From NCBI GenBank assembly GCA_024760545.1, contig CP060501.1, forward strand, positions 2,806,036 to 2,870,035: a stretch of 64,000 nucleotides of DNA, written 5' to 3'. The notes beneath the pieces are model-generated. The model had not been told where the DNA came from, made no database searches, and saw nothing but the letters and a program-made list of their open reading frames with translations. Shown here piece by piece: positions 38,353-49,949 of this stretch. The DNA comes from Nitrospira sp. (GTDB lineage: Bacteria > Nitrospirota > Nitrospiria > Nitrospirales > Nitrospiraceae). Every line of letters begins with the position of its first letter. Position 1 is the stretch's first letter. Made by a program: the position numbers and the translations under genes.

Positions 38353-38507
38353 AAGATATTGCGAAGCCAGTCCAATCTTGCTACAACAGGCGCCCGATAC
38401 TGTGATGATCTGGTCCGGTTTGTTTGTCTGGCTGGCCGCTTTGCAACACGTCACCAAACAACTTCCGAACAACCAGAACGCTCGCTTACCAGACGAAAGG
38501 GGAGATG

Positions 38508-39077
38508 ATGGTACCTACGCATATGTTTTTAACGAGAGGGGTGGGGGTCCACAAAGAAAAATTGGCCTCCTTCGAAGAAGCGTTGCGCAGCGCCGGTGTG
38601 GCCTATTGCAACCTCGTCAGCGTCTCTTCCATCCTTCCACCGAATTGTAAGATCATCCCCCGAAAGCGCGGTGAAAAGCTGTTGAAACCCGGAGAGATTA
38701 CGTTTTGCGTCATGGCCCGTTCCGAGACCAACGAACGAAACCAACTGGTTTCGGCTTCGGTCGGCCTCGCCAAGCCCACTGATCGAGGCACCTATGGGTA
38801 TCTCTCAGAGCATCATGCTCATGGTGAGACGGATGAGGAAACCGGAGAGTATACGGAAGATCTCGCCGCGCAAATGCTGGCGACGACGTTAGGAGTTGAA
38901 TTCGATCCGAATGTCGCCTGGAAAGAGCGCGAACAGGTTTTTAAGATGGGCGGAAAGATCGTGCGAACCCTGAATATCACCCAGTCGGCTGTCGGCAAGA
39001 AGGGGAAGTGGACAACGGTCATCGCGCTGGCGGTCTTCATTCCGGCTGAGAATGTGCCCAACCGCTCTCGCAAGTAA
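38508..39077 (+). CDS. pyruvoyl-dependent arginine decarboxylase
   Basis: About 189 residues; ATG 38505 and 38508 are adjacent and AGGGGAG favours the second. The proenzyme self-cleavage region [13 protein letters not shown] is intact: chain cleavage before a Ser creates the pyruvoyl cofactor. [14 protein letters not shown] and the acidic [10 protein letters not shown] are also family-typical. It converts arginine to agmatine. The agmatinase gene follows after 63 bases, so the two steps to putrescine are encoded together. Confidence 0.92.
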
Positions 39078-39140
39078 CAACCTGTCGTTCTTGGCTGTAT
39101 TGGTCAGCCGTAGTCGTCGGGTAAGGGAAGAGAAGAACGC

Positions 39141-40073
39141 ATGACGCTTCCCTCGGGTTGGGAGGGGCCGGAGCACAATTTCCTGGGGATCGACGAACCC
39201 TGGTGTCATCCGGACCAAGCAGGCGTCTACGTGCTGCCGGCTCCCTACGAACACACCTCCAGTTACATCCAGGGATCAGACCGCGGCCCATCCGCCATCC
39301 TGGAAGCTTCGAGCCAGGTTGAATTCTATGACGAACAGCTGCGGTTTGAGCCCTATCAAGAATGGGGCGGAATCGCGACGGCTTCGCCCTTGGATCTCAA
39401 GGGGAAGGTCGATCGTGCCGCAGTCGATGCCATTGAAGCGTTTGTCTCACCGCATGTTGGAGTAGGGCGGTTTTTAGTCACGTTGACGGGTGAACACACT
39501 GGTGCGCTGGGAGCCATTCGAGCCCACGCGAAACGATACCCTGACATGACGGTTGTCCAGATCGATGCGCACGGCGATCTGCGAAATGCCTATCAAGGCA
39601 ATCCGTTCAGCCACGCCAGTGTCATGGCGCGCGTCGTAGAGGACGGCTTAGCATTGGTGCAGGTGGGAATCCGATCGATCAGTCAGGAAGAGATTGCTTG
39701 TATTGACGCAACGGATCGGATCAAGACATTTTTTGCTGCAACGATCCTTGACCCTTCAGGTTCGTATGAAGGCAAAGCGGGAAAGTGGATTCCTGACGTG
39801 GTCGCCGCCTGTCGAACGCCGGTCTACTTAACGTTCGACTGCGACGGATTGGATGCGTCGATCGTTCCTGCGCTTGGAACTCCGGAACCAGGCGGCCTCG
39901 GATGGTACGATACCCTTAATCTCGTCACGGCGCTTGCCAACGGGCCGGGCATCGTGGGAATGGATGTCAGCGAGATCGCTCCAATCGAAGGGTTTGTGGC
40001 GCCACAATTTTCCATCGCGCGTCTGATCTATCGCATCCTGGGTCGAGTGAAGGCTGGCCGTCGCGTGCACTAA
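39141..40073 (+). CDS. speB: agmatinase
   Basis: A 310-residue ureohydrolase. The manganese ligands appear in GEHTGALG, DAHGDLR and FDCDGLDAS, with PALGTPEPGG following. It hydrolyses agmatine to putrescine and urea, acting on the product of the arginine decarboxylase encoded just upstream. The first motif has GEHT rather than the commoner GGDH. Released urea could be relevant to nitrogen metabolism in a Nitrospira-like host. Confidence 0.92.
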   Translation: MTLPSGWEGPEHNFLGIDEPWCHPDQAGVYVLPAPYEHTSSYIQGSDRGPSAILEASSQVEFYDEQLRFEPYQEWGGIATASPLDLKGKVDRAAVDAIEAFVSPHVGVGRFLVTLTGEHTGALGAIRAHAKRYPDMTVVQIDAHGDLRNAYQGNPFSHASVMARVVEDGLALVQVGIRSISQEEIACIDATDRIKTFFAATILDPSGSYEGKAGKWIPDVVAACRTPVYLTFDCDGLDASIVPALGTPEPGGLGWYDTLNLVTALANGPGIVGMDVSEIAPIEGFVAPQFSIARLIYRILGRVKAGRRVH

Positions 40074-40853: not shown

Positions 40854-41753
40854 CTAACTGAGCAACTCGCGACGGGCGGTTCGAACGAGGGCGAGAACGA
40901 TCGGGTGCTTCAGCCGCCGCTCCACGGTGATGGCGTAGAAGTGCTGCTTGAGCCCTTCCGCTTGGCCGACTACCTGCACTCGATATTGGCGACAGATTTC
41001 CTTCTCAATCACCGATGCGCCGGGGAAGATCCCGTGCCCGTCCTGTCCGAACGCTTTTAATGTCGCGCTGTCGTCGAACTCCCCCACTATGTTGGGTTGC
41101 ATTCCGTAGTTGACCAGCCATTGATCCAACAGCCGCCGAAGCATGGCGTTGGAGGTAGGAAGGAGTAATGGTGCGTCGCGAAGCGATTGGGGAAAACCTC
41201 GGCGATACTGCGAGGCCAGCTTTGCCGTGGCAAACAGCGTGACTCCCGATTCGCCCAAGGGGTGGTTATACGTGTGCTCCTTGATGCCCGGCGGGGCCGG
41301 TGTGTCGGCGATCACCAGATCCGAACGATGGGCGGCCAGATCGGTCAGGAGTTGGCGCAATTTGTCTTCGTTGCAGATCAACCGCGTCGGCCGATACAGC
41401 TTCAGAGCCGATTTGAGGAGCTGAGTCGCCAACGGTTTCGGCACCGCGTCCGCAATGCCGACGACCAGCCGCGTCGGATGCCCATTGCCCTGCCCCTTCA
41501 CCGTGTTCATCAGCTCTTGACCGGTCGCGAAGATGTCCTCCGCGTACTTGAACACGAGCTGGCCCATCTCCGTCAGCGCCAGCTGGCGGCCGGACCGGAT
41601 GAATAACTTCTCTCCCAACGTATTTTCCAAGAGATGGATCTGTCCGCTGATCGTGGGCTGCGCCAGACGGAGTTCCTCGCAGGCTTTGGTCACAGTCCCG
41701 TGCTTAGCGACGGACCAGAAATACAGCAGGTGGTGATAGTTCAGCCAATCCAT
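40854..41753 (-). CDS. nhaR: LysR-family regulator, NhaR-like
   Basis: A 299-residue LysR protein. The helix-turn-helix lies in HGTVTKACEELRLAQPTISGQI (in part), and the beginning MDWLNYHHLLYFW is typical of NhaR. NhaR activates sodium/proton antiporter and other genes in response to sodium. No antiporter gene is near. It is divergent from the first TolC-like gene across 140 bases, so control of that secretion cluster is possible. Confidence 0.83.
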   Translation of the reverse strand: MDWLNYHHLLYFWSVAKHGTVTKACEELRLAQPTISGQIHLLENTLGEKLFIRSGRQLALTEMGQLVFKYAEDIFATGQELMNTVKGQGNGHPTRLVVGIADAVPKPLATQLLKSALKLYRPTRLICNEDKLRQLLTDLAAHRSDLVIADTPAPPGIKEHTYNHPLGESGVTLFATAKLASQYRRGFPQSLRDAPLLLPTSNAMLRRLLDQWLVNYGMQPNIVGEFDDSATLKAFGQDGHGIFPGASVIEKEICRQYRVQVVGQAEGLKQHFYAITVERRLKHPIVLALVRTARRELLS

Positions 41754-41895
41754 ATGGCCCTAGGTCTCGAATTAGGGAAGTTACTATACATCGGATTAGC
41801 CGATAACTCCAATCCGTTTTATCTATTTTGAAAAATAAGCGGGAGATTGCTACTGTGGGCGCCGTCCGCCACCTGATGTGAAAGGAGCATCCCTC

Positions 41896-43446
41896 ATGAT
41901 CGCTCTGGTGTTGGCCATTGTGACTCTTCTGCCAATGACCGCACTGGCGGAACCGGTGATCGACTCGCGTGCCGTACAAGCGCAGTCGACTCGCACCGCA
42001 CCACTGACCATCAGCGAAGTGCTGGCTCGCATCGAGTTGACGCATCCACTGCTTCAGGGGATGGGAGCCGAGCGATCGAAGGCCCGGGCGAAGATCCTGA
42101 AGGCGCTCGGAGCCTGGGAACCGATGGTCAAGAATTATACACAGACCGAACGCTATAACACGTGGAATCTCACGACGGCGTTCAACATTCCGAGTCAACA
42201 AACGGGTGGATATGCCGACAGCACGGTCCAGGTCGGGCATCCCTGGGGCTTCACGGTCGAAGGCGGGCTCCGCAGCGGCTTCGGCGATCACCCCAACAGT
42301 CGCATTGCGTTTCCCCCTGACCTACTGGCCACCTATCATTATCAGCATTTCTACTACGGCGGGACAGTCCATCTGCTGCGAGGCTTCATGGTCAACGAGG
42401 AGAACGCCCAGTTTCAACAGGCGGAACTCGCGGGGCCGCAAGCGGAGATCAAAGTGGCGCAGAAGCGGCAAGATCTCTACCTGGCCGGAGCGGTGCAGTA
42501 TTGGGATTGGCAGGTCGCTGTGAAACAAGCGGATGTGGTGAAGCGTGCCTTGGGCGTTGCCGAAGAGCGCTTGGTCCAGGTCGAAGGGTTGGCCAAGGGC
42601 GGGAAGGTCGCGCCGCTCGATGTCGTCGAGGCGAACCAAGAGGTTCAGAAACGGCAACAGGCTGCGATCGCCGCGCAACGGAAGGTGGAGTATGAACAGT
42701 ATAAATTGTCCCTGTTTCTCTGGGAAAACGGCGAACCGGTGACGCCGCGAGCGGAATGGGCGCCGGAATTCCAGGGGGAAACGCCGCTTCCGACCAACGA
42801 GGAGGTTGCCGGCTATAAAGTAGAGGCGAAAGAAACACGGCCTGAAGTGCGGGACCTCTACATCGAGGCCAAGCTGAACAATATCGACATTAAGCTCGCC
42901 AAGAACAAACTGCTCCCCACGTTGGATCTTGAAGGGGGGCCGACCAAGGGCGTTGCGGACTGGGTCGTGGGACTCGGGTATCGGGTCGGTCTGCATAGTG
43001 AGATGCCGGTGTTCCAACGGGAAGCGCGTGGGAAGATCATGGCTGCGGAAGTGAGCCAGCAACAATTGGCGTTGAAACAGCTATACACCGAACAACAAGT
43101 CAGCTTCGACGTGGATAACTGGCTCTCGGCCCAAGTGCGGGCCAGAGACCGGGTGACGGCGGCGACGGAGGCCCTACGGCTGGCCAAGACGCTGGAGGAA
43201 GGCGAGCGCACGAGGTTTAACTTGGGATCTACCACCGTCTTATTCGTGAACCTCCGTGAGCGCCACGTGGTGGAACAGGCGTACCAGCTGTATCGGGCGC
43301 AGGCCGACTACGCCGTGTCGCGTGGAGGTATGTTGTGGGCCAGGGGAGCGCTGTCTAAGCCCTGGGCCGAAAGCGAGTTGAGCAAGTACGGAAACCCGCT
43401 GACGGCGGCGGGCATGAACGGCTTCAAACGACCGGGCCGCGATTAA
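41896..43446 (+). CDS. TolC-like outer-membrane channel protein, copy 1
   Basis: The ATG at 41896, with AAAGGAG upstream, gives 516 residues and a signal peptide ending MTALAEP. TolC-family features are long helical repeats, RIELTHPLLQ at the start and a second-half EVRDLYIEAKLNNIDIKLAKNKLLP (in part). Blocks such as AQKRQDLYLAGAVQYWDWQ and RGGMLWARGALSKP are nearly identical in the next two genes. It would form or contribute to a trimeric outer-membrane duct for the downstream ABC-HlyD exporter. Confidence 0.88.
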   Translation: MIALVLAIVTLLPMTALAEPVIDSRAVQAQSTRTAPLTISEVLARIELTHPLLQGMGAERSKARAKILKALGAWEPMVKNYTQTERYNTWNLTTAFNIPSQQTGGYADSTVQVGHPWGFTVEGGLRSGFGDHPNSRIAFPPDLLATYHYQHFYYGGTVHLLRGFMVNEENAQFQQAELAGPQAEIKVAQKRQDLYLAGAVQYWDWQVAVKQADVVKRALGVAEERLVQVEGLAKGGKVAPLDVVEANQEVQKRQQAAIAAQRKVEYEQYKLSLFLWENGEPVTPRAEWAPEFQGETPLPTNEEVAGYKVEAKETRPEVRDLYIEAKLNNIDIKLAKNKLLPTLDLEGGPTKGVADWVVGLGYRVGLHSEMPVFQREARGKIMAAEVSQQQLALKQLYTEQQVSFDVDNWLSAQVRARDRVTAATEALRLAKTLEEGERTRFNLGSTTVLFVNLRERHVVEQAYQLYRAQADYAVSRGGMLWARGALSKPWAESELSKYGNPLTAAGMNGFKRPGRD

Positions 43447-43469
43447 TCCGGCACAAGGAGCATCCGTCG

Positions 43470-45017
43470 ATGGCCGCTCTATTACTCGTGATTCTGATCT
43501 TGCTTCCCGTGGCGACGCTGGCCGAACCGGTGCACGATTCCAGCGCGTTGAAGGCGCAGTCCTCCCGCACCGAGCCTCTGACCATCAGCGAAGTGCTCGC
43601 CCGCATTGAGTTGACGCATCCGTTGCTGCGGGCGACAGGGGTGGAACGGATGGATGCCCGAGCGAAGATCCTGAAGGCGCTCGGGGCCTGGGAACCAAAG
43701 TTCAACAACCGGACCGAGGCCGATCGATATCAGTCTTGGAATTTCCTGGCCTTCGTGAATGAGACGACGGGGGGATATAACGATTCCACGATCGCGATGG
43801 GGCATCCCTGGGGCTTCACGATCGAAGGCGGGATCCGCAACGGGTTTGGGGATCGCACGAACCAAGGCGCCCATGCTCTCCTCGCGAATGATGGCCTGTT
43901 GTTCTGGCATAACCAGCAAATGATCATAAGTGGGTCGGCCCACCTGCTGCGCGGCTTCATGATGAATGATGAGTACGCCGACTTCCAGAAGGCTGAACTT
44001 GCGGGACCGCAGGCGGAGATCCACGTCGCGCAGAAACGGCAAGACCTCTATCTCGCCGGCGCCGTGCAGTACTGGGATTGGCAAGTGGCAGTGAAGCAGA
44101 ACGAAGTCCAGCAACGGACCCTGGCTGTGGCTGAAGAACGGTTCAAGCAGATCGAGGGCCAGGCGAAGAGGGGACTGTCCTCGCCGCTCGATGTGATCGA
44201 AGCCACTCAAGAAGTCCAGCGACGGCGAGAGGCAGCCATCGCCGCCCAACGGAAAGTGGAGTATGAGCAGTACAAACTGTCCCTCTATCTCTGGGAGAAC
44301 GGCGAGCCGGTGTCGCCGCGACCGGAATGGGCACCTGAATTCCAAGGAGAAACGCCGCTCCCGACCAAGGAGGAGATCGCGGCCTATAAGGTGGAGGCTA
44401 AAGAGGACCGGCCGGAAGTGCGGGAGCTTTACATCGACGCCAAGATCAACAATATCGACATCAAGCTCGCAAAAAACTATCTGCTCCCAAAGTTGGATTT
44501 TAAGGGTGGACAAATGGACGCCGGCTCGGACTGGAATGTGGGTGTCGGGTATCGGACGGAATCGTGGTTTGCGATGCCGCTGTTCCAGAGAGAAGGGCGG
44601 GGGAAGGTCCTCTACGCGGAAGCGGACCAGCAACAATTGGCCTTGAAACAGCTGTACACCGAGCAACAAGTCAGCATCGACGTGGACAACTGGCTCTCCG
44701 CCCAAGTGCGGGCCAGAGACCGGGTGAAGGCGGCGACGGAGGCGCTGCGGTTGGCCAAGACACTGGAGGAGGGAGAACGAACCCGATTCAACATGGGTGC
44801 GACCACCGTTCTCTTTGTGAACCTCCGTGAGCGCAACGTGGTGGAACAGGCGTACCAGCTGTATCGGGCGCAAGCCGACTACGCCGTGTCGCGTGGAGGC
44901 ATGCTGTGGGCGAGGGGCTCATTGTCGAAGCCGTGGCCCCAAAGCGAGTTGGCCAAGTACGGGAACCCGCTGACGGCGGCGGGCACGAACGGCTTCAAAC
45001 GACCGGGACGCGATTAA
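43470..45017 (+). CDS. TolC-like outer-membrane channel protein, copy 2
   Basis: A 515-residue paralogue of copies 1 and 3, 23 bases downstream of copy 1, with AAGGAGCATCC before its ATG exactly as in the others. The signal peptide ends VATLAEP. It is most similar to copy 1 in the C-terminal third (LKQLYTEQQVS, NWLSAQVRARDRV, VVEQAYQLYRAQADYAVSRG). The region differing most is residues 85-160, which would form surface loops and strands. Gene conversion may keep the ends alike. Confidence 0.88.
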   Translation: MAALLLVILILLPVATLAEPVHDSSALKAQSSRTEPLTISEVLARIELTHPLLRATGVERMDARAKILKALGAWEPKFNNRTEADRYQSWNFLAFVNETTGGYNDSTIAMGHPWGFTIEGGIRNGFGDRTNQGAHALLANDGLLFWHNQQMIISGSAHLLRGFMMNDEYADFQKAELAGPQAEIHVAQKRQDLYLAGAVQYWDWQVAVKQNEVQQRTLAVAEERFKQIEGQAKRGLSSPLDVIEATQEVQRRREAAIAAQRKVEYEQYKLSLYLWENGEPVSPRPEWAPEFQGETPLPTKEEIAAYKVEAKEDRPEVRELYIDAKINNIDIKLAKNYLLPKLDFKGGQMDAGSDWNVGVGYRTESWFAMPLFQREGRGKVLYAEADQQQLALKQLYTEQQVSIDVDNWLSAQVRARDRVKAATEALRLAKTLEEGERTRFNMGATTVLFVNLRERNVVEQAYQLYRAQADYAVSRGGMLWARGSLSKPWPQSELAKYGNPLTAAGTNGFKRPGRD

Positions 45018-45043
45018 TTCAGCAACATAAGGAGCATCCTTCC

Positions 45044-46636
45044 TTGATCCTTCTTTTGCTGTTCTCGTTGATGATGGTGCCGGCGACCGCACTAGCAGAA
45101 CCGGTGCTCGACTCGACCGTTGTGCGGACACAGTCAGTCCGTACCGCTCCCCTGACCATTGAAGAGGTGCTGGCTAGGATTGAGTTGACCCATCCGCTGC
45201 TCCAGGCGACCGGACTGGAGCGGGCGCAGGCCCGGGCGAAGGTCTTCAAAGCATTGGGTGTGTGGGAGCCGAAGATTCGGAACGAGCTCGAGTTTGACCG
45301 GTATCAAACGTACAATCTGACGAACGCCAGTGGCGCGCCGAATCACTTAAGTTCTGGCTATGTTGATACCTTTCTCAAGATCGGGCACCCTTGGGGGTGG
45401 GAGATCTTCGGCGGTATCCGTAATGTCTTTGGGGATCATGCGACGCTCAGTGGGCAGCTTGGTAATGGTGACCGTAACGTCGTGACTCCCTCGATAGCGG
45501 TCCCTCAAGACTTTCAACTGTTCTATCCGCAGCAAATGGGCCTCGTCGGCGGAAAGTTGAATCTCCTGCGGGGATTCATGGTCAACGAAGAGTTTGCCCA
45601 ATTTCAACAGGCGGAAATCGCCGGGCCGCAAGCCGAGGTGAAGGTGGCCCAGAAACGGCAAGACCTTTATCTCGCCGGGGCCATTCAATACTGGGATTGG
45701 CAGGTCGCCGTCAAACAAGCCGATGTGGTGAAGCGTGCGCTGGACGTCGCAGACGAGCGCTATCGCATGGTTGAGGGTAGGTCCAAAGCCGGTGCGGTCG
45801 CTCCGATCGACGTGGTCGAAGCCAGAGAAGAAGTTCAGCGGCGTCGAGAGGCTGCCATTGCCGCGCAACGAAAGGTCGAATATGAGCAATATAAGCTGGC
45901 GCTCTTTCTCTGGGAAAACGGCCAACCTGTAACACCTCGCCCTGAATGGGCACCGGAGTTTCAAGGGGAAACGCCGGTGCCGACTGAGGAGGAGATAGCG
46001 GCCTTCAAGGTGGCAGCCACGGAGGACCGGCCGGAAGTGCGCGATCTCTACATTGAAGCCAAATTGAACAATATCGAACTGAAACTGGCGAAGAATAATC
46101 TGCTTCCAAAGCTCACGGTTGAGGGAGGGCCTGCGATCGGCTCTATCTATTGGGTTGGAGGCATCGGCTATCGAATGGCCACGTTCTTCAGTATGCCGTT
46201 GTTCAATCGGGCTGCCCGAGGGAAAGTCCTTCACGCCGAAGCGGAGCAGGAGCGATTGGCCTGGAAACAAGCATACGCGGAGCGACAAGTTCAGATCGAC
46301 GTTGATAACTGGCTCTCAGCGATTGTGCGGGCCCGAGACCGAGTGAAAGCCTCAACAGAGGCTCTGCGATTGGCCAAGACGTTGGAGGAAGGCGAACGGG
46401 TTCGGTTTAATATGGGAGCGACGAGTGTGCTGTTCGTCAACCTACGAGAGCGTGCGGTGGTCGAATTGGCTTACGAACTCTACCGTGCCCAAGCCGACTA
46501 TGTGGTGTCCCGAGGAGGGATGCTGTGGGCAAGGGGGGCACTGTCGAAACCACTGGCTGAAAGTGTGCTTGCCAAATATGGCGAGCCATTAAATGCCGCA
46601 GGCTCGTCCGGTCGTAAACTACCTGGACGTGACTAA
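45044..46636 (+). CDS. TolC-like outer-membrane channel protein, copy 3
   Basis: The TTG start at 45044 is chosen because it has the same AAGGAGCATCC leader as the other copies and gives a proper signal peptide (ILLLLFSLMMVPATALAEP). It encodes 530 residues and is the most diverged copy, with an insertion around residues 115-160 (FGDHATLSGQLGNGDRN). It ends LPGRD, as the others end RPGRD. It is probably translated from the same transcript as copies 1 and 2. Confidence 0.86.
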   Translation: MILLLLFSLMMVPATALAEPVLDSTVVRTQSVRTAPLTIEEVLARIELTHPLLQATGLERAQARAKVFKALGVWEPKIRNELEFDRYQTYNLTNASGAPNHLSSGYVDTFLKIGHPWGWEIFGGIRNVFGDHATLSGQLGNGDRNVVTPSIAVPQDFQLFYPQQMGLVGGKLNLLRGFMVNEEFAQFQQAEIAGPQAEVKVAQKRQDLYLAGAIQYWDWQVAVKQADVVKRALDVADERYRMVEGRSKAGAVAPIDVVEAREEVQRRREAAIAAQRKVEYEQYKLALFLWENGQPVTPRPEWAPEFQGETPVPTEEEIAAFKVAATEDRPEVRDLYIEAKLNNIELKLAKNNLLPKLTVEGGPAIGSIYWVGGIGYRMATFFSMPLFNRAARGKVLHAEAEQERLAWKQAYAERQVQIDVDNWLSAIVRARDRVKASTEALRLAKTLEEGERVRFNMGATSVLFVNLRERAVVELAYELYRAQADYVVSRGGMLWARGALSKPLAESVLAKYGEPLNAAGSSGRKLPGRD

Positions 46637-46778: not shown

Positions 46779-48458
46779 ATGAAAGAACCTCAGGGCAAAA
46801 GTAGTTATCCGGGCCTGTTCGACGCGCTGATGAAGCAGCTCTCCGTGGCCATGCGGGCTGAGAAAAGGATCATGCATTTGATTCTTTCTTATGCTCTGGC
46901 CGTCGCATTCTTTTCTCTCATCATTCCGTTGACCGTGCAGGAGTTGGTCAGCACGTTTTCATATGCGATTCAGCCGGTCATGATTTGGACGTTGACCGGT
47001 ATCATGCTGCTGGTACTGTTATTTGTCGGCTTGTTCAAGACGTTCCACTTTTATGCCGTGGATGTCGTGCAACGCCGTCTTTTTGCCAGAGTCTCGGTGG
47101 CGATGGTTGAACAGATCCCTCGGAACCGATTCAGAGGGTCCCGAGGAGACCTTTCAAACTTCTTTATTGAAACGGTCTTTATGCAGCGGGCGTTGTCCAC
47201 GTTACTCATCGATCTGGTAAATGTCGTAGTGGGCGGGACGGTCGGCATGATCTTGCTGATGGTCTACCATCCCTATTTTCTCACGTACAACCTGGTGCTC
47301 ATGGCCGGATTCCTGGTCACATTTTTCGTGCTCTCCCGCGGTGCACTGAGGGCGACTCTCGATATGTCTCACGCGAAATACGATGTGTTCAATTGGATTC
47401 AAGAGATTTCACACAATGCGTTGCAGTTGAAGGCCACGGATAGCCGACCGTTTGTCATGCAACGGACGAATGACTTGGTCAACCGGTATGTAGAAGCTCG
47501 GAAGGCACGGTTTGCCGTCCTCGTGCGTCAATACATCGGTTCTGTGGGGGGACAAGCTATAGCGCATGCGGGTGCGCTTGGTATCGCCGGCTATCTTATG
47601 GCCCAGGGGCAGTTGACACTTGGACAATTGGTAGCCGTCCAAGCGGTCGTCAGTGCACTGGTGATCAATTTTGACTCCCTGATCAAGAACATGGGCCATG
47701 TGTACTATTTCTTCGCCTCCCTCACTCACCTTGATGAGGTCTTTACACAGGAGCAAGATTTCGTTTCGACCGAATCGGCTGTGGCACTGCCGAAGCATTT
47801 GAATCAAGGAGTCCGTGTTACCTGCAAAGGCGTCAGTCTCACTCACGGTGGTGCATCTGTGTTTGACGGTTTCAACTTGGATGTGGCACCTGGGGAAAAA
47901 CTTGGGATCTATGCCCGGACAACAGCGGCCAAAACGGCTTTGGCCAGGGTATTGGGTGGTCTCGAAACTCCGACCACGGGTGTTGTTCAGTACAATGGAG
48001 TCGATCTCCGGTACATCGAGCCTAATGCGATCAATCAATGCCGTAGCGTCATGATCGATTCACAGTTGTCTTTGATCGAGGGAACGATCGAAGAAAATAT
48101 AGTCATGGGTCGCTCGTATGTTACCTATGATGATCTCAACTGGGCCCTCCGCTTCACGGAGCTCGAGGAAGATGTCGAAACTCTGCCACGCGCAGCTAAA
48201 TCGGATATATCAGCGCTGGGCGAGTCCCTTTCGCCGACTCACATCGTACAGATCCTCTTAGCTCGCGCTATCCTCGGACGTCCCCAAGTTCTCATATTCG
48301 ATGGCTTGATTCACTCACTCGAACCATCGTTACGCGAAAGAGTGCTACGCCGGTTGTGCTCCAAGGATGAAGCATGGTCGGTTATCTTTGTATCAACGGA
48401 TCCAAACCTGACGGATCATGCTGATCGTCGTATTATGCTTCATCATGCCAATGCATAA
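46779..48458 (+). CDS. type I secretion-like ABC transporter with degenerate ATPase domain
   Basis: A 559-residue half-transporter: membrane domain at about residues 30-320, nucleotide-binding domain at 345-559. The ATPase motifs are badly eroded. The P-loop reads YARTTAAKTA (379-387 region, Lys385 kept, three glycines lost). The signature reads LSPTH instead of LSGGQ (484-488). Walker B ends IFDG, with Gly509 for the catalytic Glu, the D-loop is SLE, and the switch His is Asp541. It sits between three TolC-like genes and an HlyD gene. It probably binds ATP poorly, if at all. Confidence 0.88.
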   Translation: MKEPQGKSSYPGLFDALMKQLSVAMRAEKRIMHLILSYALAVAFFSLIIPLTVQELVSTFSYAIQPVMIWTLTGIMLLVLLFVGLFKTFHFYAVDVVQRRLFARVSVAMVEQIPRNRFRGSRGDLSNFFIETVFMQRALSTLLIDLVNVVVGGTVGMILLMVYHPYFLTYNLVLMAGFLVTFFVLSRGALRATLDMSHAKYDVFNWIQEISHNALQLKATDSRPFVMQRTNDLVNRYVEARKARFAVLVRQYIGSVGGQAIAHAGALGIAGYLMAQGQLTLGQLVAVQAVVSALVINFDSLIKNMGHVYYFFASLTHLDEVFTQEQDFVSTESAVALPKHLNQGVRVTCKGVSLTHGGASVFDGFNLDVAPGEKLGIYARTTAAKTALARVLGGLETPTTGVVQYNGVDLRYIEPNAINQCRSVMIDSQLSLIEGTIEENIVMGRSYVTYDDLNWALRFTELEEDVETLPRAAKSDISALGESLSPTHIVQILLARAILGRPQVLIFDGLIHSLEPSLRERVLRRLCSKDEAWSVIFVSTDPNLTDHADRRIMLHHANA

Positions 48459-48503: not shown

Positions 48504-49949
48504 ATGGCTAGCCTAAGTGGTGGTCTCGAAAACAGTGGGGGACGTGCGCTGATTAAGCGAGGGGTCGGGTTAGAGGCGATCACTATTGAACAGGGACCCG
48601 CATTGGCCAAGTTGCCATGCTGGGAAGCCGTACAAATTCCACGGGGTATGTTCACGGCTTCACGCGCGATTCTAACGATTCTTCTGGTGTTTCTGATTAT
48701 CCTCGAGTTCGTACCCTGGACGCAGACCATCCAGGCGTCCGGGAAGGTTTCCGCGTATACTCCCTATGATCGCCCTCAACAGCTCGAGTCTAGAATCACC
48801 GGCCGTGTCAAGGCCTGGCATATTTATGAAGGCGTCAAGGTGAAAAAGGGAGAACTCGTCGGCGAGCTGGAGGACTACGATCCAACCTTCATGGCGCCTG
48901 AGATCCTCCCACTGTTCGAACAACGGAGGGTGGCTCTGGAGCAAACACGCCAAGCGGCACTGGCCCGGGCGGATCAGCTCACCAAGAGAATTGGAGAGAT
49001 GAAGAAGTTGGTCCAAGCCGCCGTCCCCTCGGCAGAAGCCCGAGTAGTGGAAGCTGACAACAAGGTTCGTGAGGCTCAACAGAAGGTCGAGCAACTTAAA
49101 ATTGATGTGCATACGGCACAACTCAATGTCGACCGGCACAGACAACTTGTCAGGGATGGATTGGTCTCTCAACGTGAACTTGAGTTGACGATTCAAACGG
49201 AAATCGGGACCAAGGCCGGTCTCCAGGCAGCGCAGGCCAGCCTTTTGGCTGCTGAACAAGCCAGGTCGGCTTTAAGCTTCGGTCGCGATCAGATCACGGC
49301 AGACGTGCAGCAAAAGCTCATGGATGCCATAGCGTCTCGAGATGCTGCGGTGGCTGAAGCTGCCAAGGCGACAGAGAGTTTGGCAGACATATCTTACCGG
49401 CAACAGGGCGTCCAACAACGTATCGAGGCCGCGAAACTCATAGCGCCAATGGATGGGACGGTTGTCAAGATGGCTAAGGTTGGAATCAATGAAACGGTCA
49501 AGCAGGGAGAGAATCTGGTCACCATTTCTCCACTCGCTTCCGATCCGGCCATCGAAATGACAGCTGAAGGGTTGGATGCTCCGCTCTTGACCCCAGGCCG
49601 AAAAGTGAGGATCCTATTCTTCGGCGTGCCGGCCATTCCATTACCAGCCTGGCCTTCATTGATGGCGGGTACCCGAGGCGGCGTCATCAAAGTGGTCGAT
49701 CAAATCGACGATGGAAAGGGAAACTATCGCTTCTGGGTGGTTCCCGATCCGGATGATCCTCAGCCCTGGCCGGAACAGGCCAAGGTGCGCCAGGGTACGA
49801 GAGTGTTGGGCTGGGTGATCATGAATCGTGTGCCACTCTGGTACGAACTGTGGCGGCGGTTCAACTTCTTCCCACCGGACTATATTGAACGGTCGCCCAG
49901 TGTGTTTGAGATGTTCGCTCCCAGGGCGGCTGGGCAGGGCGTCAAGTAA
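48504..49949 (+). CDS. HlyD-family membrane fusion protein
   Basis: A 481-residue adaptor with GGAGG before its ATG. One membrane anchor lies at about residues 52-68 (AILTILLVFLIILEFVP). Next comes a split biotinyl-lipoyl domain (GRVKAWHIYEGVKVKKGELV in part, and APMDGTVVKMAKVGINETVKQG in part) around a long coiled coil at residues 130-310. The C-terminus has an unusual Trp/Pro-rich tail. It should bridge the ABC protein to the TolC-like channel. It starts 45 bases after the ABC gene. Confidence 0.9.
   Translation: MASLSGGLENSGGRALIKRGVGLEAITIEQGPALAKLPCWEAVQIPRGMFTASRAILTILLVFLIILEFVPWTQTIQASGKVSAYTPYDRPQQLESRITGRVKAWHIYEGVKVKKGELVGELEDYDPTFMAPEILPLFEQRRVALEQTRQAALARADQLTKRIGEMKKLVQAAVPSAEARVVEADNKVREAQQKVEQLKIDVHTAQLNVDRHRQLVRDGLVSQRELELTIQTEIGTKAGLQAAQASLLAAEQARSALSFGRDQITADVQQKLMDAIASRDAAVAEAAKATESLADISYRQQGVQQRIEAAKLIAPMDGTVVKMAKVGINETVKQGENLVTISPLASDPAIEMTAEGLDAPLLTPGRKVRILFFGVPAIPLPAWPSLMAGTRGGVIKVVDQIDDGKGNYRFWVVPDPDDPQPWPEQAKVRQGTRVLGWVIMNRVPLWYELWRRFNFFPPDYIERSPSVFEMFAPRAAGQGVK

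Follow-up and report, generated by a model that had tools for sequence, protein, structure and literature searches.

The window, by which we mean the whole stretch of 64,000 nucleotides analysed here, comes from a 4.8 Mb Nitrospira genome and contains an operon-like run on the forward strand in which three TolC-like (OEP) genes are followed by an ABC-type gene, here called pABC (pseudo-ABC exporter; 46779..48458), and then by the gene for an HlyD-like periplasmic adaptor (48504..49949). The TolC-like genes form a tandem array (window 41878-46636) with copies at 41893..43446, 43470..45017 and 45002..46636, the first encoding an outer-membrane factor 73% identical to the second; pABC thus lies where the sequence-only reading had placed it, with TolC-like genes upstream (41893-46636) and the HlyD-like gene downstream. 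Divergent from the run and upstream of it is an NhaR-type LysR regulator (40854..41753, reverse strand), an assignment that scores above its cut-off, and a second family of the same order also has this regulator beside the module. Many Nitrospira share the synteny of the module with flanking genes for a pyruvoyl arginine decarboxylase and an agmatinase (window 38424-40073). The locus holds the ABC, HlyD and TolC gene set of a type I secretion system, although pABC does not qualify by sequence as an ATP-hydrolysing ABC subunit of a curated family.

The pABC frame is uninterrupted from the ATG at 46779 to the stop at 48456-48458 (559 codons, 559 amino acids), and its layout is that of an ABC half-exporter, with a transmembrane domain (TMD) at about residues 1-330 and a degenerate nucleotide-binding domain (NBD) at about residues 341-559. 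Membership of the NBD in ABC_tran (PF00005) is supported both by score (39.9 bits, above the Pfam cut-off of 25) and by a predicted fold that appears normal (pLDDT ~87) and matches the NBDs of TAP1 and ComA with Z of 23-24. The TMD falls under the Pfam cut-off for ABC_membrane (PF00664; 19.3 bits, cut-off 28), with an alignment that spans nearly the full profile, and its fold, modelled with modest confidence (~60 pLDDT), matches exporters in model comparison; the nearest solved folds to the protein are TAP, TM287/288, TmrAB, IrtAB and PCAT1. The best NCBIfam similarities are to NHLM_ABC1 (130 bits), CydC (113 bits) and LssB (113 bits), all far below the curated cut-offs, none of which is reached (LssB, 113 of 693 bits). 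Like the type I secretion proteins HlyB, PrtD and LssB and the NHLP exporters, pABC has their domain order and HlyD and TolC partners, but it differs from them in these low scores and in the loss of the hydrolysis motifs.

ATP hydrolysis is the defining activity of ABC exporters, and the Walker A, signature, catalytic Glu and switch His of an ATP-driven ABC transporter are all lacking in pABC. Read from an alignment with intact exporters, the remnant Walker A (YARTTAAKTA, residues 378-387; 47910..47939, forward strand, as are the features below) has its glycines replaced at three sites (A379, T382 and A384), LSPTH stands in place of LSGGQ in the signature (residues 484-488; 48228..48242), the Walker B end reads FDG with Gly509 for the catalytic Glu (residues 507-509; 48297..48305), the D-loop is HSLE instead of SALD (SLE, residues 513-515), and the Q-loop Gln is lost to Ser428, with Ser in 120 of 124 relatives. 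In the switch region (TDP, residues 540-542; 48396..48404), the His position in ungapped register is Thr540, while Asp541, nearly invariant across the family, stands where intact exporters have Arg after the switch His. The sequence-only reading had described exactly such an intact frame of 559 residues with its ATPase motifs off consensus, and its calls for Walker A, signature, Walker B and D-loop hold; its switch residue has to be moved from Asp541 to Thr540, one position before, and its description of a departed P-loop applies to the three glycines, Lys385 and Thr386 still being present. By contrast, Walker A and the switch His are normal in all five further ABC exporters that the genome encodes, as is the signature in three of the five, those fitting a simple search pattern.

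Of 396 genomes sampled from the phylum, 111 contain relatives of pABC (E <= 1e-60); the listed ones fall into two families (f1 and f3) of one order, and the best named matches are nearly all Nitrospira or Nitrospirae records. The motif loss seen in the window copy is shared, far beyond chance, by 124 distinct NBD-bearing relatives from Nitrospirales, and residues essential for catalysis are absent family-wide: Gly replaces the catalytic Glu in 124/124, Asp follows the switch position in 123/124, the Ser position of the D-loop is His in 123/124, the switch position itself is T or N in nearly all and never His, and no complete GxxxxGK[ST] Walker A occurs among the 124. Identical changes in many genomes, single-contig ones included, led us to reject sequencing or assembly error as their cause. 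In the tree the family forms a single clade on a long stem from intact exporters, with a root inside the family that is unsure because of the quick tree method and the long outgroup branches. Lineages with GKT in the P-loop are drawn near the base, AKT or ARM prevails within the main genus, and one f3 clade has no NBD at all, and from this distribution the likely order of losses is catalysis first, the P-loop later and the whole NBD last.

A degenerate ABC protein might still work as one half of a heterodimer, and the sequence-only reading had raised the pairing of pABC with a distant intact half-transporter that would supply one working ATP site. Heterodimeric exporters do lose the catalytic Glu or the switch His in one site, and such one-sided degenerate sites are common among them (PMC7756269). 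The known heterodimers among the nearest solved folds (TM287/288, TmrAB and TAP) nevertheless keep one working site, whereas in the tandem pairs of type A and type B pABC copies found in other genera both copies are dead and no pair has an intact composite ATP site. Moreover, a single chain carries damage to the signature, Walker A and Walker B alike, so that neither composite site of a heterodimer would be complete; no intact ABC gene consistently adjoins pABC across the family loci, neither an intact ABC partner gene nor a split NBD was found next to it, and members without any NBD exist. We therefore regard this pairing as very improbable.

Median dN/dS among close orthologues, estimated by the Nei-Gojobori method and rough because dS is near saturation, was lowest in windows around the former motifs (0.020), followed by the NBD (0.034) and the TMD (0.072), and the dead-site region is therefore more guarded than the rest of pABC. 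Several residues are invariant or nearly so within the family and different in intact exporters (N406, R422, W455, G509, H512, W533 and D541). For a pseudogene on its way out one might cite an in-frame stop in one pseudo-ABC paralogue (L034:4839-6623); another copy (L125) is apparently frameshifted near its end and one genome has a deletion scar, but dN/dS of 0.02-0.07, intact frames in nearly all genomes and the fixation of new residues leave this explanation next to no probability, and the selection analysis refutes it. The earlier proposal that pABC is selected rather than decaying is strongly supported by dN/dS, by the family-wide fixed changes and by co-occurrence with HlyD; pABC is under strong purifying selection.

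Because the dead NBD is so strongly conserved, it must still do something, and the greater constraint on the NBD than on the TMD could be taken to mean that the site binds nucleotide without hydrolysis and gates the TMD. Retention of the P-loop Lys in 105 of the 124 relatives, and of GKT in some lineages, is in keeping with such a nucleotide-gated conduit. We consider it improbable, however, as the clade of the window retains none of the P-loop glycines and neither the signature nor the Q-loop Gln, and another clade lacks the NBD altogether.

pABC is inherited together with its HlyD gene. In 46/49 well-flanked loci, pABC has an HlyD as well as a TolC gene no more than 6 kb away, and an HlyD relative is present in 44/44 genomes with pABC compared with 1/21 without. 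The sole HlyD-positive genome without pABC, from the same genus and 2.0 Mb in size, has a deletion scar (L186:7177-8602) surrounded by agmatinase, RsuA, PurE and PurK genes in place; the deletion joins the NhaR end to HlyD residue 70, indicating that the module was removed together. Our search of the neighbourhoods for cargo gave no consistent candidate gene at pABC loci. In a single case (L114:12052-19257), a gene for a 2401-aa RHS-repeat/Kelch protein lies between pABC and the gene for a four-helix-bundle protein. The latter, of ~260 aa with two TM segments and a four-helix-bundle sensor domain (PF12729) with no signalling domain, is encoded 3' of pABC in 29 loci (e.g. L044:9662-10450), but nothing closely similar is encoded in the genome of the window.

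Three species carry TMD-only relatives of pABC (L041, L042 and L175; 337-348 aa) in genomes that are 95-100% complete, and no orphan pABC-family NBD was found elsewhere in these genomes; the NBD, with which this clade dispenses, was probably lost in a single event in related species. We compared 141 TMD sites that are invariant in eight NBD-bearing relatives with the three NBD-less versions. Twelve of the 141 are changed in the latter, and eight of these 12 lie in two NBD-facing cytoplasmic loops (8/19 sites in the loops vs 4/122 elsewhere; Fisher p ~9e-6, with the ICL1 window set after seeing the data); for intracellular loop 2 alone (ICL2, residues 206-229; 47394..47465, forward strand) p = 0.0004, and since the three species share descent the site changes are not independent events. 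Even members without an NBD keep well-conserved membrane-spanning segments, and the membrane domain thus stays conserved while its NBD contacts decay. SbmA-type transporters are likewise without these coupling helices (PMC13316013). The NBD-less operon continues directly into further genes, one NuoL-like, one unknown and one for DabA (transport of inorganic carbon), and the HlyD gene of one of these genomes (L175 / G378:C61:32463-33815) has an in-frame TAG. DabA and NuoL-like genes were rejected as a general partner of pABC, occurring only in the NBD-less clade and near L031, with NuoL-like genes also near L045.

The continuation of the NBD-less operon into these genes could also be read as a sign that the dead exporter is a non-transporting scaffold or sensor, which anchors HlyD-TolC or senses a ligand or the membrane state and leaves movement of the cargo to another transporter. 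The sensor-like four-helix-bundle protein at 29 loci would fit, as would the B-type paralogues (L035, L040, L182 and L183), which lack HlyD and TolC neighbours, adjoin genes for an NtrC-type regulator and a histidine kinase, and possibly represent an ABC-like sensor. This alternative is unlikely, if less so than the other rivals; against it stand the conservation of the membrane-spanning segments where the NBD is gone and the lack, across the family, of any second transporter consistently linked to pABC. The sequence-only reading of a protein not driven by ATP, as a scaffold or with another energy source, remains the best one, and the evidence, short of proof, favours a transporter over a mere scaffold.

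We propose, at a probability of about one half, that pABC serves, independently of ATP, as the inner-membrane partner in a tripartite exporter with HlyD and TolC. The ABC motor would have lost ATP hydrolysis for good, the TMD would act as a dimer with export through HlyD-TolC, and the dead NBD, where kept, would hold the cytoplasmic loops as a structural clamp or a regulatory docking surface, a function that this explanation names and leaves at that. The drive is probably an ion gradient, as in SbmA, on account of the natural loss of the NBD, the family-specific carboxylates, the NhaR-type regulator and the precedents of SbmA and LmrA-MD; with such a regulator adjacent, a pH- or sodium-related trigger is plausible. 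The carboxylates in or near membrane helices (E28, E55, D/E95 and D/E299, conserved across the family, and E288, shared by most of it) occur rarely or never in the intact exporters used for comparison and resemble the glutamate ladder that SbmA has (PMC13316013), although the TMD model is too uncertain to place them in a pore. Position 288 is Gln in the clade of the window and Glu in most relatives, which counts against an ion-driven transporter. The proposal is further weakened by the probable single origin of the NBD loss and by the stop in the HlyD gene of one of the three NBD-less genomes.

The closest precedents each share part of this arrangement. SbmA/BacA-like peptide transporters (SLiPT) have the ABC-exporter transmembrane fold, as pABC does, and work without ATP, having lost the NBD and coupling helices from an ABC ancestor (PMC13316013). 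They differ in having no NBD at all, in a YddA-like origin and in importing peptides, whereas pABC has a dead NBD in most members and an HlyD-TolC operon; conserved acids are present in the pABC family, and the NBD is absent only in the three species. Ion-coupled transport by the membrane domain of an ABC exporter has been reported for LmrA-MD, an engineered LmrA without NBD (PMC6155054, PMC2704374), a laboratory construct in contrast to the natural NBD-less lineage of pABC. Modules of SecA_DEAD, HlyD and M50 proteins, reported from a Nitrospirae genome among others, likewise have HlyD without a normal ABC motor, but their authors found no ABC homologue in the loci (PMC4452313), and we rejected them as the module of pABC on these grounds. 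The pABC family may, tentatively and at somewhat below even odds, represent a second natural origin of an ion-driven, ATP-independent transporter from an ABC exporter, inside an HlyD-TolC envelope exporter and with its intermediates alive in sister lineages, where catalysis lost, P-loop lost and NBD deleted are all surviving stages. Degeneracy of one site in ABC proteins and SLiPTs without an NBD were already known; our literature searches found no report of a doubly dead exporter family in an operon like that of type I secretion with surviving intermediates, and one elsewhere is not excluded.

A pump under strong selection, whose ATPase is dismantled in every known copy and altogether deleted in three species, points to the possibility of ABC-type pumping without ATP consumption. 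The graded series down to a natural deletion of the NBD offers a direct test of the share of the membrane domain in the transport cycle, and it also bears on how primary transporters become secondary ones. For Nitrospira, the module represents a conserved and uncharacterised putative envelope exporter, in which automatic annotation may well call pABC an ordinary ABC ATPase.
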